Shown here in pieces: positions 1,047 through 33,698 of a stretch of 64,000 nt of DNA. The notes beneath the pieces were generated by a model. It did no database searches. It was not told the DNA's origin and saw only the letters and a list, made by a program, of their open reading frames with translations. This stretch comes from Micromonospora sp. DSM 45708. GTDB lineage: Bacteria > Actinomycetota > Actinomycetes > Mycobacteriales > Micromonosporaceae. The position numbers were made by a program, and so were the translations under genes. Location of the stretch: the NCBI RefSeq assembly GCF_039566955.1, contig NZ_CP154796.1:2976001-3040000 (forward strand), given 5' to 3'. Positions within the stretch are counted from its first letter, which is position 1, and every line of letters begins with the position of its first letter.

Positions 1047-2039
1047 CTAGAGACCCAACCCCGACAACGCCCGGTTCGTGCGGTTGGCCGCCACCGCCGC
1101 CCGCTGCTGACCCGCCGTCACCTCGATGTACGTCTGCGACGACGCCAACGACGCATGCCCCAGCAACCGCATGATCTCCGCCGCGCTCGCCCCGTCCTCG
1201 GCCAACCGCGTCGCGAACGTGTGCCGCAACGCGTGCAACCGCGCCCCCCGCGGCACCCGGTCACCGATGCCCGCCCGCCGGAAACACGACTCCACCAGAT
1301 ACTGCAGACCACCCCGACGCAACGGCTCACCCCGCCGGTCCACCAGCAACGGCCCGTCCGGACGCACACTGCGCACCCCGAACCGGCGCCGCCTGCTGTC
1401 CAGGTAACCACCCACCACCCGGTCCACGCCCGCCTCGATCGGCACCGTGCGCGGCCGGCCGCCCTTACCGGCCACGTCCACCCGCCGCTCACCGTCGCGA
1501 CCGGCCAGCGACGACACCCGCAGCGCCAGCAACTCCGACAGGCGCAACCCGGCGCACAGCGCCAACGCCAGCACCACCACGTCCCGCTCCGGCCACGGGT
1601 CGCGCTGCCGGCCCTCGGCGCGCGCCACCGCCGCCAGCAGCTCCTCCGGGGTGTCCTCGCCCCGCAGCGGCTTGGGCCGGGGGAGCGGCGTGCGGGGCCG
1701 CCCCACCGCCGGCATCGGGTTCCCGGCCACCACGCCGTCGGCGACCAGGAACGTGAAGAAACTGTTCCAGGTGGACCAGGCGCGGTGGACCGACGCGGCG
1801 GCGCGGGGGGCGGCGAAACGGGCGAACGCCGCGCGCATCAGCCGGGGGGACAGCGCGCCGACCGGCAGTCGGCCCAGGGGGAGGGGAGTGGCGTCACCGT
1901 CGGCCACCTCCAGCGCGGCGACGCCGGTGAGGTCCCGCCGGTACGCGGCGAGGGTGTGCGGGGAGGGCTTGCGGGTGGCCCGGGCGGTCAGGAACTCCTC
2001 GATCAGCGCCTCAACCGTTTGGTCCGGTTTGTCATGCAT
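1047..2039 (-). CDS. tyrosine recombinase, XerC/D-like, complete
   Basis: 330 residues, close to XerC/D length. A SAM-like core-binding domain spans about 8-115 and the catalytic domain 125-330. All catalytic residues are visible: Arg166 (GLRLSEL), Lys192 (GKGGRPR), His269 and Arg272 (HALRH), His295 (LLGHAS) and nucleophile Tyr304 (SSQTYIEV). It should cut and rejoin DNA at a pair of 11-base arms around a 6-base centre. Just such a site (2031-2058) covers its own start codon, so the protein may bind its own promoter or use that site as a substrate. It is divergent from the phosphotransferase gene at 2136, with a dif candidate 1 kb away. Whether it is a housekeeping Xer or an element-borne integrase is open; a Xer-type element integrase is my inference. 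Confidence 0.9.
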   Translation of the reverse strand: MHDKPDQTVEALIEEFLTARATRKPSPHTLAAYRRDLTGVAALEVADGDATPLPLGRLPVGALSPRLMRAAFARFAAPRAAASVHRAWSTWNSFFTFLVADGVVAGNPMPAVGRPRTPLPRPKPLRGEDTPEELLAAVARAEGRQRDPWPERDVVVLALALCAGLRLSELLALRVSSLAGRDGERRVDVAGKGGRPRTVPIEAGVDRVVGGYLDSRRRRFGVRSVRPDGPLLVDRRGEPLRRGGLQYLVESCFRRAGIGDRVPRGARLHALRHTFATRLAEDGASAAEIMRLLGHASLASSQTYIEVTAGQQRAAVAANRTNRALSGLGL

Positions 2040-2058
2040 AAGGGATATTATGCATGAT
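2031..2058. other. dif-like Xer site overlapping the recombinase start codon
   Basis: Two 11-base arms, GTCATGCATAA and TTATGCATGAT, are exact inverted repeats except for the outermost base and flank the 6-base centre GGGATA. The 11-6-11 layout with inner ATAA/TTAT is that of XerC/XerD sites such as dif. It overlaps codon 1 of the adjacent tyrosine recombinase and lies in an AT-rich island within ~70% GC DNA. It could be a recombination site, an autoregulatory operator, or both. Its centre differs from that of the site at 3029-3056. Confidence 0.6.
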
Positions 2059-2135
2059 TTTCGCGTCCCCGCCAGGTCGCCACTGCGGGGGAGCGCACCC
2101 GGAAACGCGATTGCCGCACCCCGCAGACTGGACCC

Positions 2136-3005
2136 ATGGTGGAGATCGACGCCGCACTCGTCCGCGCCCTGGTCGCCGCACAGTTCCCGCAGTGGGCGCA
2201 CCTGCCGGTCACCGCCGTCGCGCGCCAGGGATGGGACAACCGGACGTTCCGCCTCGGCGAGCACCTGCTGGCCCGACTGCCCAGCGCCGAGGGTTACGTA
2301 CCCGGCGTCGCCAAGGAGAACCGCTGGCTGCCCGCCCTGGCCCGCCACCTGCCGCTGCCCGTACCCGAGCCGGTCGCCACCGGCACGCCCGGCGCCGGCT
2401 ACCCGTACCCCTGGTCGGTGCGGCGCTGGCTGCCCGGCGACACGCTGGAGGCCGCCGACGGCCTGGACCGTGTCGCCGTGGCCCGGGACCTCGGCGGCCT
2501 GCTGGCCGCGCTGCGCCGGGCGCCGACAGTGGGCGGACCGGTCGCGGGCCGGCACTCGGCGTTCCGGGGCTGCCACCCGAGCGTCTACGGCGACGAGGTG
2601 GAGCAGGCCCTGGCCACGCTGGGTGACCGGGTGGACGCCGCCGGCGTCCGGGAGGTGTGGGCGCGCGCGGTGACGTCCGCCTGGCCGGCGGCGCCGGTGT
2701 GGTTCCACGGTGACGTCTCGGCCGGGAACCTGCTGGTCGCGCGGGGTCGGCTCGCCGCGGTGATCGACTTCGGGCAGTGCGGCGTGGGTGATCCGGCCTG
2801 CGATCTGGTGCCGGCCTGGACGTGGTGCGTCGGCGTCGAGCGCGCGGCGTTCCGGGAGGCGGTCGGGTTGCCGGCCGACGTGTGGCGGCGGGCCCGGGGC
2901 TGGGCGCTGTGGAAGGCGCTCGTCACGATGGTGTCCGGGTCGAGCTCGGATGCGGAGCCGCTGCGGGTGCTGGCGGCGGTCCTGGCGGATCCGGTGGTGG
3001 AGTGA
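2136..3005 (+). CDS. aminoglycoside phosphotransferase-family protein
   Basis: 289 residues with a protein-kinase-like (APH) fold. The Brenner-type motif HGDVSAGN near residue 193 holds the catalytic Asp and metal-binding Asn, and IDFGQCGVGDP about 20 residues later supplies the metal-binding Asp. The N-lobe begins TAVARQGWDNRTFRL. Family members phosphorylate aminoglycosides, macrolides or metabolites such as choline and homoserine; many chromosomal actinomycete copies have no proven resistance role, so resistance is not claimed. The gene stands alone, divergent from the tyrosine recombinase, and sits exactly between two dif-like sites (2031-2058 and 3029-3056). The ATG at 2136 is the only sensible start. 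Confidence 0.82.
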   Translation: MVEIDAALVRALVAAQFPQWAHLPVTAVARQGWDNRTFRLGEHLLARLPSAEGYVPGVAKENRWLPALARHLPLPVPEPVATGTPGAGYPYPWSVRRWLPGDTLEAADGLDRVAVARDLGGLLAALRRAPTVGGPVAGRHSAFRGCHPSVYGDEVEQALATLGDRVDAAGVREVWARAVTSAWPAAPVWFHGDVSAGNLLVARGRLAAVIDFGQCGVGDPACDLVPAWTWCVGVERAAFREAVGLPADVWRRARGWALWKALVTMVSGSSSDAEPLRVLAAVLADPVVE

Positions 3006-3028
3006 CGGGGAGACCCCCGCTCCGCCTT

Positions 3029-3056
3029 ACTTGACATAATGTGCATTATCGAATCG
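3029..3056 (-). other. candidate chromosomal dif (XerC/XerD) site
   Basis: Plus-strand arms ACTTGACATAA and TTATCGAATCG flank TGTGCA. Read on the minus strand the core is GATAATGCACATTATGTCAA, which fits the conserved part of actinobacterial dif sites as I remember it (GATAAT, two variable bases, ACATTATGTCAA), while the outer XerC arm diverges. The putative XerD arm TTATGTCAAGT also resembles that of E. coli dif. The site is intergenic, between the phosphotransferase stop and a terminator hairpin. Its function as dif is inferred. Confidence 0.6.
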
Positions 3057-3109: not shown

Positions 3110-5470
<2,361 letters not shown>

Positions 5471-23204: not shown

Positions 23205-24191
23205 TCAGCCGCGACGGCGGGCGCGGGCGGCCCAGATCGCGTACGCCGGGTCGCGGTCCAGGTTGTGCCGGTCCCGGTCGTAGCGACGGGTGGTCCGCGG
23301 GTCGGCGTGGCCCATCGCGTCCTGCACGTCCTCCAGCGGCACCCCCTCCGAGCGGGCCGTGGTGGCGAACGCGTGCCGCAGCGAGTGCGGCGACAACCGC
23401 GCCCAGGCGGCGATCCCGGCGGTCTGCGCCAGGCGACGCACCAGCCGGAACACGGCGTGCCGGTCCAGCCGGCCCCCGGTGGCGGTGACCAGCAACGGGC
23501 CGGTCAGCTGCGGCACCGTGACGCCCTGGGCGGCGGCCCGCTCCGCCAGGTAGGCGTCCAGCGCGTACGCGGTGCCCGGGGTGAGCGCGCGACGGCGTAC
23601 CTTGCCGCCCTTGCCGACGAAGCGGACGCTGCGGTGACCGCGCTCCGCGCCCAGGTCGGCCAGGTCCAGGGAGACCAGCTCGCCGACCCGCAGCCCCAGA
23701 TCGGCCAGCAGGGCGAGGGTGGCCCGGTTGCGGGCGGCGGTCGGGCCGGTGTCGGCCTCGGCGGCGGCGAGCAGCGCGTCGACCTCGTCCGGGCTGAGGC
23801 CGATCGTCGCGGAGTGGTCCCGGTCGACCCGGGGCCGGTCGGCCGCGGCGACCGGGTTGGCCGGGACCGCACCCAGCTTGACCAGGAAGTCGTACCAGCT
23901 CGACAGCGCGGACAACCGGCGTGCCACGGTGGCCGGGGTCAGCGGGCGGCCGTCGCGCCCGCGCGGGGTGGACTCCAGGTCCCGGCCGTACGCGTTGACG
24001 TCGAGGAAGGTGACCCGCAGCGGTTCCAGGCCCCGCTCGGCGCACCAGCGCAGCCAGCCGGTGACGTCCCGCCGGTACGCGTCGCGGGTGTGCTCGGACA
24101 GCCGCCGGTTGCGCAGCCACGCCTCGGTGAAGTCGGCCGGAGCGCCGGACAGGGCGACACGGGCGCGGGGCAGGACCTCGGGACGCAGCAT
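23205..24191 (-). CDS. tyrosine recombinase, complete (second of three)
   Basis: 328 residues. N-terminal SAM-like domain ~18-110 (AWLRNRRLSEHTRDAYRRDV); catalytic Arg168 (LGLRVGEL), Lys194 (GKGGKVRR), His269/Arg272 (HSLRH), His295 (MGHAD) and Tyr304 (TTRRYDRDR). It should be active. Unlike the other two recombinases in the window there is no 11-6-11 site next to it; only TGAGA/TCTCA arms lie upstream at ~24193-24207. No partner gene, and the neighbours are chromosomal. It may be a chromosomal Xer paralogue or a solitary integrase. Confidence 0.88.
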   Translation of the reverse strand: MLRPEVLPRARVALSGAPADFTEAWLRNRRLSEHTRDAYRRDVTGWLRWCAERGLEPLRVTFLDVNAYGRDLESTPRGRDGRPLTPATVARRLSALSSWYDFLVKLGAVPANPVAAADRPRVDRDHSATIGLSPDEVDALLAAAEADTGPTAARNRATLALLADLGLRVGELVSLDLADLGAERGHRSVRFVGKGGKVRRRALTPGTAYALDAYLAERAAAQGVTVPQLTGPLLVTATGGRLDRHAVFRLVRRLAQTAGIAAWARLSPHSLRHAFATTARSEGVPLEDVQDAMGHADPRTTRRYDRDRHNLDRDPAYAIWAARARRRG

Positions 24192-32617: not shown

Positions 32618-33544
32618 TCAGCCTCGTGCCCGAGTACGGCGCCGGGCGGCGCGGATTTCGTCGTCGGCGACCTTGTCGTCGAGCAGGGCGTACAGCTGGG
32701 TGGTCTCGGTGGAGGCGTGCCCGAGCCTGCGGCGTACGGCTTCGATGGAGACTCCGGCGTTGATCAGTTCGGTGGCGTGGGAGTGGCGTAGCTGGTGGAT
32801 GTCGACGCCGGCGGCCGTGCAGTAGCGGGTCCACCGGTGCTGGGCGGCATCGTAGGACAGCGGCCCGCCGGAGCCGTTGATGGAGGCGCGGAACAGCGGC
32901 CCGGCCGTGTAGCCGGTGCGCTGCAGGTAGAGCTAGAGCAGGGCGACGTAGCCGCGGTCGTCGAGCAGCACGGTGCGTACGGTGCCGCCCTTGCCGTGGA
33001 TGCGTACGTGTTCGTCGTCCAGGCGCAGGTCGAGGTCCTCGACGTAGAGGCCGCAGACCTCGCCGGCCCCGGCCCCGCACACGTAGATGGTTTCGAACAG
33101 CACCCGGTCGCGCAGCCGGTCGTCCGGGAGGTCCTTGCGCGGGCGGCGGGGGCAGATGGCGGCGAGGACCTTGGCGACGTCGGCGGCGGCCGCGGGGCGG
33201 GGCAGCCGCTTGGGGACTTTGACGGTGTCGATGCGGTCCATCGGGTTCGCGTCGAGCAGGTCGTGGCGGACCGCCCAGCGGCAGAACGAGGCGACCGCGG
33301 CGCGTTTGGGTTTGCGGGTGGCCGGCGCGAGGCCGGCGGTCTCGGCGAGGAAGGCGCGCACCGGGGCGACGGTCAGTTCGCCGGGCCCGGCGTCGTGGTG
33401 CGCGGCGAACTGGAGGAGGTCGCCGCGGTAGGCGCGGATGGTGTGCGCGGAGGCGTTGCCGTTGGCCAGGTCGCCGAGGAACGCGTCGAGCGCCGCGGCG
33501 AGGGGGTGCCCGGTGCCGAGTTGCTCGCGGATCGCCTCGTCCAT
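32618..33544 (-). pseudogene. TnpI/Xer-like tyrosine recombinase with amber codon and lost catalytic Arg
   Basis: Reading from ATG at 33542-33544 (CTGGAG upstream) gives a 308-residue recombinase if the TAG at 32933-32935 (codon 204) is read through. Before it is the core-binding domain and Lys185 (HGKGGTVR); after it are His250/Arg253 (HQLRH), His276 (LGHAS) and Tyr285 (TTQLYALL), all in the same frame. The first catalytic Arg is replaced by Gly159 (YVCGAGAGEV where YATGARxGEV is usual; one-base CGG-to-GGG change). Two independent lesions mean this is not a sequencing slip alone. It would have been the resolvase of the transposon. Confidence 0.85.
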
Positions 33545-33559
33545 GCCGTGATTCTCCAG

Positions 33560-33698
33560 GTTGCCTGATAACCGGGAATCGAACCGGCATCGGCGCGAGC
33601 CCGGCGGTCGGCCCTCACCGGCGCCGACCAGGGGAGATCGCGAGTCGGGTGCCGGGCTCGGTCCCGGTGTTGCCTGATAACCGAAGTTATCACGCAAC
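33560..33698. other. TnpI-type internal recombination site (IRS-like)
   Basis: Core: arms TTGCCTGATAA and TTATCACGCAA around CCGAAG (33670-33697); the longer arms GTTGCCTGATAAC/GTTATCACGCAAC match in 12 of 13 positions. A further copy of GTTGCCTGATAACCG lies in direct orientation at 33560-33574, 16 bases from the recombinase start. Core plus accessory direct repeats beside the recombinase gene is the organisation of the Tn4430 IRS. Confidence 0.72.

Follow-up and report, generated by a model that had tools for sequence, protein, structure and literature searches.

XerS/difSL and XerH/difH each combine one tyrosine recombinase (YR) with a palindromic terminus site that is mostly linked to the recombinase gene (PMC2731167, in the part available), and XerL/dif of Legionellales combines a single YR with a single terminus site, the XerL gene of Coxiella lying on a plasmid (PMC9765430, in the part available). 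As described in those parts, XerH and XerS are the sole Xer recombinase of their species and XerL/dif occurs where no XerC/XerD system is known; in the papers examined, a single-recombinase system takes the place of XerCD/dif on a chromosome and does not accompany it. Here we describe a 64,000-nucleotide stretch of Micromonospora sp. DSM 45708 (NZ_CP154796.1, positions 2,976,001 to 3,040,000; hereafter the window), in which the gene of a third Xer-type YR begins inside a palindromic, dif-like site (site 1) and lies beside the predicted dif of XerC and XerD (site 2). Loci and genomes are referred to by L and G numbers.

The pair shares with XerH/difH and XerS/difSL, as far as the available descriptions go, its single YR, palindromic site, variable 6-bp centre, terminus position and gene linkage, but XerC, XerD and dif are present here as well; similarly, it stands beside an XerC/XerD system where XerL/dif does not. 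Three features shared by single-recombinase systems were found (a 28-bp palindrome, a single-copy terminus site and gene-site linkage), whereas a fourth, being the only Xer system of the chromosome, was contradicted by XerC/XerD matches and by a dif in 41 of 41 genomes of the genus. The locus thus looks like a single-recombinase system that is not the sole Xer system of its chromosome. It shares with XerC/XerD-dif the YR fold family, the 28-bp layout and the chromosomal address, but that system uses two different recombinases, here encoded 1 and 2 Mb away, and an asymmetric site. With pdif modules and IMEX elements it shares dif-like sites, yet here there are no paired XerCD sites and no co-travelling gene, and the recombinase is encoded beside its site. 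We consider it probable, with some reserve, that the YR and site 1 form a cognate single-recombinase Xer system coexisting with XerCD/dif at the replication terminus.

The palindromic site and its recombinase lie beside dif

Site 1 reads GTCATGCATAA GGGATA TTATGCATGAT, its arms matching at 10 of 11 positions, and site 2 reads ACTTGACATAA TGTGCA TTATCGAATCG (CGATTCGATAA TGCACA TTATGTCAAGT on the minus strand), with matches at 5 of 11 positions and an inner ATAA/TTAT. The original prediction, made from these letters alone, had described two 28-bp sites with 11-6-11 arms and, next to site 1, a Xer-like tyrosine recombinase whose start codon falls within the site; both descriptions were confirmed (Table 1), the ATG occupying 2037-2039. 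It had also noted that the two centres differ, which is correct but incomplete, as the arms differ too (a symmetric palindrome versus an asymmetric XerCD-type dif). Its expectation that the two sites do not simply recombine is upheld. The window has three copies of the pattern ATAA-N6-TTAT, and none of 60 simulated windows (first-order Markov, with the dinucleotide frequencies of the window) has any.

The arms of site 2 (XerC-type, 3046-3056; XerD-type, 3029-3039) were presumptively assigned by analogy with known dif sites. Site 2 is identical at 24 of 28 bases to the dif proposed for Frankia alni (PMC3025954, in the part available), and a dif pattern with up to 2 mismatches was found exactly once per genome in all 41 genomes of the genus; we take site 2 to be the chromosome's own dif. 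GC skew was taken in 20-kb samples: of the 11 to the left of dif, 7 are zero or positive and the mean is slightly above zero, and of the 12 to its right, 11 are negative, which is weakly consistent with a terminus position; close to dif the skew was irregular, the dif-containing sample being negative and the first right-hand one positive, and the switch is not sharp. Counts of GGGNAGGG, a candidate FtsK-orienting motif, gave no clear switch. The source genome is a single chromosomal contig of 7.0 Mb, and the best matches of its YR in the named collection are from Micromonospora.

Relative to the YR gene, dif is flipped in nearly all loci of a second family (f31) when compared with Micromonospora and its close kin, and the named loci from outside Micromonosporaceae that have a dif are likewise opposite to Micromonospora (L139-L158 and L227-L258 compared). 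One f31 sub-clade has no canonical dif near site 1 (L149, L150, L151, L153, L154, L155, G508, G615, G645 and G654); in those ten, an 11-6-11 palindrome, ACCRGACAGAA-N6-TTCTGTCYGGT, lies 399-702 bp from site 1, in some cases occurs again at another place in the genome, and may be a diverged dif.

The YR is distinct from the XerC and XerD of its genome. It scores 152 bits on XerC, its best NCBIfam model (cut-off 335), 128 on XerD (cut-off 329.6) and 63.9 on XerS (cut-off 267). The genome's own XerD and XerC were identified separately, at 4.03 and 5.02 Mb; on the XerC model, XerC and XerD reach 290 and 271 bits as against 152 for the YR, although they too stay below the equivalog cut-offs (335 and 329.6), at 290 and 303 bits. 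In a tree of 104 rows, the YRs separate from XerC, XerD and another YR of the source genome (98/99), the plasmid YRs form one branch (100/100) and family f31 forms one side of a branch (99/86), the very long branches making deep placements uncertain; L107 (truncated) and L128 (same gene as L104) were excluded. Orthology of the YR with XerC or XerD was rejected on both the model cut-offs and the separate tree position. Of the 41 genomes of the genus, 35 have two strong matches to the XerC model, which we interpret as XerC and XerD, 4 have one and 2 have none, and the six without two such matches are drafts of at least 370 contigs. The XerC of the source genome (L070) has a long low-complexity insertion preceding its catalytic domain, and in many relatives the second XerC-model match starts only near model position 120.

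Co-occurrence of recombinase, palindrome and dif

Site 1 was searched for in the genus with up to 2 mismatches; at the level of the family Micromonosporaceae, the YR threshold was E <=1e-40, the exact site core was TGCATAA-N6-TTATGCA and one mismatch was allowed for dif. Sampling was by species, draft assemblies hide some cases and the named set below may share species with the other genomes. In the first 30 loci (the window plus 29 relatives from the genus), site 1 lies over the YR start and dif lies upstream of the YR, and all of 23 further loci (7 from the genus, 16 from other genera of the family) agree. The site-1 pattern was found at a single place in 40 of the 41 genomes of the genus, with no second place; in the exception, G028, dif is only 872 bases into its contig, and site 1 may be lost from the assembly.

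Among 150 genomes of the family, 76 had the YR, 63 the exact site core and 62 both (Fisher p 4e-27, kinship ignored), the only one with the core and no YR, G009, being a draft. Of those 62, 60 have the site no more than 30 bp from where the YR match begins. A dif was found in 75 of the 76 YR-bearing genomes and on the YR contig in 74, in every case upstream of the YR, at 271-9748 bp and in 64 of the 74 at <=1.02 kb; this count omits eight second one-mismatch matches in seven genomes (G062, G077 twice, G094, G131, G147, G164 and G167). In family f31 (100 genomes), 33 had the YR, 31 the site and 29 both, with a site but no YR match in G241 and G639 and a YR without the exact site in G417, G606, G617 and G625. 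A named set of 80 loci (the best 80 of at least 449 confirmed stretches) yielded dif and palindrome together in 72, 255-1403 bp apart in 71. The YR and site pair was found beside dif in Micromonospora, Actinoplanes, Lentzea, Saccharothrix, Amycolatopsis, Kutzneria, Nocardiopsis and Kribbella.

FtsK acts over a broad zone in E. coli, and the spacing in these 71 of 72 named loci is closer than such a zone requires. This closeness speaks for the YR and site 1 being an accessory or regulatory part of XerCD/dif, as a roadblock, a synapsis aid or a means of FtsK control. However, neither the site-dif distance nor the way dif is oriented with respect to the YR gene is constant, and the invariant catalytic residues of the YR (see below) would be needless in a purely structural part; we judge such an accessory role unlikely.

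Placement and arm covariation of site 1

An operator that served the promoter alone would stay with the gene. At 27 loci the YR gene is more than 1.5 kb from dif and a site was found: (i) in 21, the site is within 1 kb of dif; (ii) in 3 (L090-L092), an imperfect site lies 1.46-1.81 kb from dif; (iii) in 3 (L089, L211 and G170), the site is retained at the gene. In many f31 loci and some loci of Pseudonocardiaceae the YR gene is 2-7.6 kb from dif and the palindrome 280-955 bp from dif, with 1.6-6.9 kb between site and gene (for example, L139, L142, L156, L232 and L233). The gene of L139 is 3.7 kb from dif, on its other side, and the site 296 bp from dif; the corresponding distances are 5.5 kb and 570 bp in L142, 7.6 kb and 704 bp in L156, 4.9 kb and 280 bp in Kutzneria viridogrisea L232, and 2.6 kb and 511 bp in Saccharothrix deserti L233. 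By its placement, site 1 is regarded as tethered to dif and not merely to the YR gene.

In Micromonosporaceae, site 1 overlaps the predicted YR promoter and the start codon. The likely -10 box, TAATAT, suggests a leaderless YR transcript starting within site 1, and the centre ends in ATA in 52 of the 62 exact-core sites of the family (the remote G063 copy omitted); because of this box 5 nt before the ATG and these 52 centres, autoregulation of a leaderless YR gene is likely in this family, and bound YR would probably repress its own gene. The same two facts, a site covering a -10-like box plus the start codon and centres ending as such a promoter would require, are what one would expect if site 1 were only an autoregulatory operator and the YR recombined elsewhere or not at all, and the original prediction was fair in warning that one of the two might serve as an operator or pair with some other site. 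Yet many f31 and some Pseudonocardiaceae sites are kilobases from the gene and still within 1 kb of dif, and the 41 genomes of the genus offered no second match to the site pattern with up to 2 mismatches. Because 21 of the 27 distant-gene loci keep the palindrome close to dif, site 1 would be more than an operator, and the operator-only reading is improbable. The f31 sites away from the YR gene have centres that do not end in ATA.

Covariation of the arms was assessed on 104 distinct sites with 53 different centres; 164 of the 192 loci contributed, the other 28 yielding no site by the criterion applied. As the search demanded a near-consensus core, only arm positions 1-4 are a fair test and inner positions were not counted. 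Position 3 pairs in 73 of the 104 sites as against 45.9 after shuffling, and position 4 in 67 as against 49.1 (p 0.0005 each, the minimum with 2000 shuffles; kinship ignored), while positions 1 and 2 showed no covariation among these sites. Concerted changes are seen, for example, in L089 (TTGGTGCATAA/TTATGCACCAA) and Saccharothrix L233 (TTGATGGATAA/TTATCCATCAA). Arms would covary because one protein would bind both of them. Palindromic centres were found in 0 of 104 sites, where ~1.6 are expected by chance, so their absence is no evidence. Separately, the core palindrome is present in 21 viral-contig stretches; those examined have 33-50% GC and no YR relative at E 1e-3, and the matches were taken as chance occurrences in AT-rich sequence.

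An enzyme apparently in use

The catalytic residues of the YR are R166, K192, H269, R272, H295 and Y304, with no sign of an arm-binding domain, and this R-K-H-R-H-Y set is invariant in all 103 aligned rows of the YR family, including four plasmid rows. Its median dN/dS is 0.18 (range, 0.07-0.29) over 60 pairs within the genus, being the first 60 in random order with >=86% identity. Because of the invariant active site and this low ratio, the enzyme appears to be in use. An AlphaFold model (mean pLDDT 76.8, pTM 0.56, from 23 sequences) confirms the tyrosine recombinase fold and nothing more, and among the 50 PDB matches listed are integrases of phages and transposons, XerA, XerH-difH, XerD and Cre; by sequence, the XerH chain matches only weakly (E 3e-7).

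A possible parallel resolution system at the terminus

Bacteria ordinarily part fused daughter chromosomes at dif, and single-recombinase systems of the XerS, XerH or XerL type resolve chromosome dimers, some of them under FtsK control. The role of the YR and site 1 is probably dimer resolution. In the mechanism that we propose, two sister copies of site 1 would be bound at their symmetric arms by two YR dimers, and the YR would exchange strands across the 6-bp centre, so that chromosome dimers would become monomers, or termini would be unlinked, at division. The YR and site 1 would act in the same FtsK-served zone as XerCD/dif and in parallel with it.

Several observations count against such a system. 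First, the YR is dispensable, since 74 of the 150 family genomes have no YR match, and dif does not need it, since 35 of these 74 have a dif. Second, the pairing is imperfect. The exact core is missing from 14 of the 76 YR-bearing family genomes, most of which show a weaker palindrome on a wider search; in G063 the exact core is 1.7 Mb from the YR, probably by chance, and no site was found near this YR, which lies 9.7 kb from dif. Eight of the 80 named loci failed to show both dif and palindrome: L198 is at a contig end, L251 has neither feature, no palindrome being found there despite its YR, L253 has a site but no dif, and in L202, L206, L209, L213 and L223 dif is present and inspection of the sequence showed a degraded palindrome across the start of the YR. 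Imperfect palindromes also accompany the YR in L090-L092 and in 11 Lentzea loci (7-8 of 11 arm matches). Third, the Fisher and shuffle tests are uncorrected for relatedness. Fourth, no recombination event was seen at site 1, no duplicate or element-flanking copies of it turned up, and no evidence was found for FtsK control of the YR and site 1. Finally, two adjacent crossover systems could undo each other: because an even number of exchanges restores the dimer, the two should act at different times or in different states.

Many actinomycetes grow as mycelia and have circular chromosomes, and mycelial growth with two kinds of septum is a speculative setting for separate use. It is a tentative proposal, conceivable but short of probable, that many mycelial actinomycetes with circular chromosomes carry two complete and independent dimer-resolution systems at one spot, the heteromeric XerCD/dif and, a few hundred bases from it, a homomeric YR with its palindromic site, and use them under different conditions, perhaps vegetative cross-walls as opposed to sporulation septa. 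That many related actinomycetes keep the same pair suggests that they may have two separate chromosome-unlinking systems. If so, the questions raised are why a chromosome should have two resolution sites, what stops them from cancelling each other, and how hyphae with many genomes organize dimer resolution. The recombinase and its site are directly testable as a pair on plasmids.

Among the open-access papers listed by literature searches, and judging by titles and opening lines of abstracts, no third Xer recombinase and no second site beside dif was found for actinomycetes. A search for terms in the main text of a review of double and single Xer systems (PMC5357621) found neither 'third' nor 'Actinobacteria', and the YR family is not shown in the available part of a survey of simple versus complex YRs (PMC8138268).

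Plasmid relatives and possible origin

YRs of large plasmids of Mycobacterium and Rhodococcus are 38-42% identical to the YR over 88-92% of its length (best 20 of 353 records). Of seven plasmid loci (six named plasmids plus a 199-kb contig, G043:C2, presumed to be a plasmid), four carry a dif-like palindrome of 11-6-11 layout that lies upstream of the gene at a distance of <=71 bp; in one of the four it is weak. The resemblance lies in the dif-like site next to the gene; in contrast to the chromosomal pair, these YRs are plasmid-borne, have no dif seen nearby and have a presumed role as dimer resolvases. The comparison suggests that the YR and site 1 may derive from a cassette for plasmid dimer resolution or have a common ancestor with one; such a cassette may have been domesticated by the chromosome, or the reverse. 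Phage relatives were set aside as distant: all 30 records have YRs of <60% identity, <=32% among the best 20 of 30.

Since the nearest mobile relatives found are plasmid YRs of the same anatomy, and dif is a known target of integration (PMC5357621, in the part available), the YR and site 1 could be a fossil of an IMEX element or plasmid once integrated at dif, with no present role. Such a relic would not be expected to show purifying selection, an invariant active site and conservation near dif in several families; moreover, there is one dif per genome in the genus, and the stretch between site 1 and dif, at 0.23-1.24 kb, is short for an element. An integrated element is a possible origin of the pair, but the fossil reading has a low probability, and we keep to the reading of a cognate recombinase and site.

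The APH gene and other features of the window

Between the two sites there is exactly one gene, a member of the APH family, as the original prediction had it (Table 1). The further suggestion, that the sites form a dif module mobilizing this gene, did not survive comparison within the genus. Among 18 genomes, both sites were present in 18 of 18 loci, while the APH gene was full length in 2 (the source genome and L085). In 3 others it was incomplete, being fragmented in L076 and L072 and truncated in L073, and in the remaining 13 it was not found. The locus comparison among these relatives revealed no unit that is present or absent with precise junctions, and the genome search gave no further copies of site 1 in the 40 genomes that have it; with each site present once, a module has no two like sites between which it could be excised. 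The site 1-dif interval ranges from 234 to 1239 bp and is largely unalignable beyond close relatives. As its length and content vary among relatives, the bracketing of the APH gene is incidental, and the gene is regarded as a passenger outside the system. One gene flanked by two dif-like sites does have the outline of a pdif-type module, with XerCD mobilizing the APH gene; nevertheless, with 13 of 18 genomes retaining both sites where the gene was not found, and with sites that are single copy and unlike in arms and centres, this has next to no probability. An IMEX element at dif was likewise rejected, given one dif per genome in 41 of 41 and no flanking second copy.

Table 1. Coordinates of the features at the dif locus, as positions in the window
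Feature	Position	Strand	Details
YR gene, third Xer-type tyrosine recombinase, 330 aa	1047..2039	-	PF00589 E 3e-23
Site 1, palindromic dif-like	2031..2058		arms 2031-2041 and 2048-2058; centre GGGATA 2042-2047
Likely -10 box TAATAT	2045..2050	-	5 nt ahead of YR ATG; inferred from sequence
APH-family phosphotransferase gene, between sites 1 and 2	2136..3005	+	PF01636 E 1e-39
Site 2, assigned as chromosomal dif of XerC/XerD	3029..3056	-	centre 3040-3045
UvrA-like ABC-ATPase gene, far side of dif	3110..5470	-	uvrA model E 2.5e-204

The UvrA-like gene scores 681 bits against an equivalog cut-off of 730; it is not invariably adjacent to dif in relatives and is a neighbour only.

Two more Xer-like YR frames are present in the window. 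An intact one (23271-24101, minus strand) is 34% identical to the dif-side YR; across the genus, 26 genomes, the source genome among them, list the dif-side YR and a YR of about this identity on one contig, and the two are 13-45 kb apart in 25 of these and 177 kb apart in G032. The other (32640-33544, minus strand) is interrupted by a TAG stop codon and lacks Arg where the first catalytic residue usually lies. The third ATAA-N6-TTAT palindrome of the window (33670-33697; arms 10 of 11) lies ~125 bp upstream of this frame, with a half copy at 33561, and the frame looks like a decayed YR with a site of its own.

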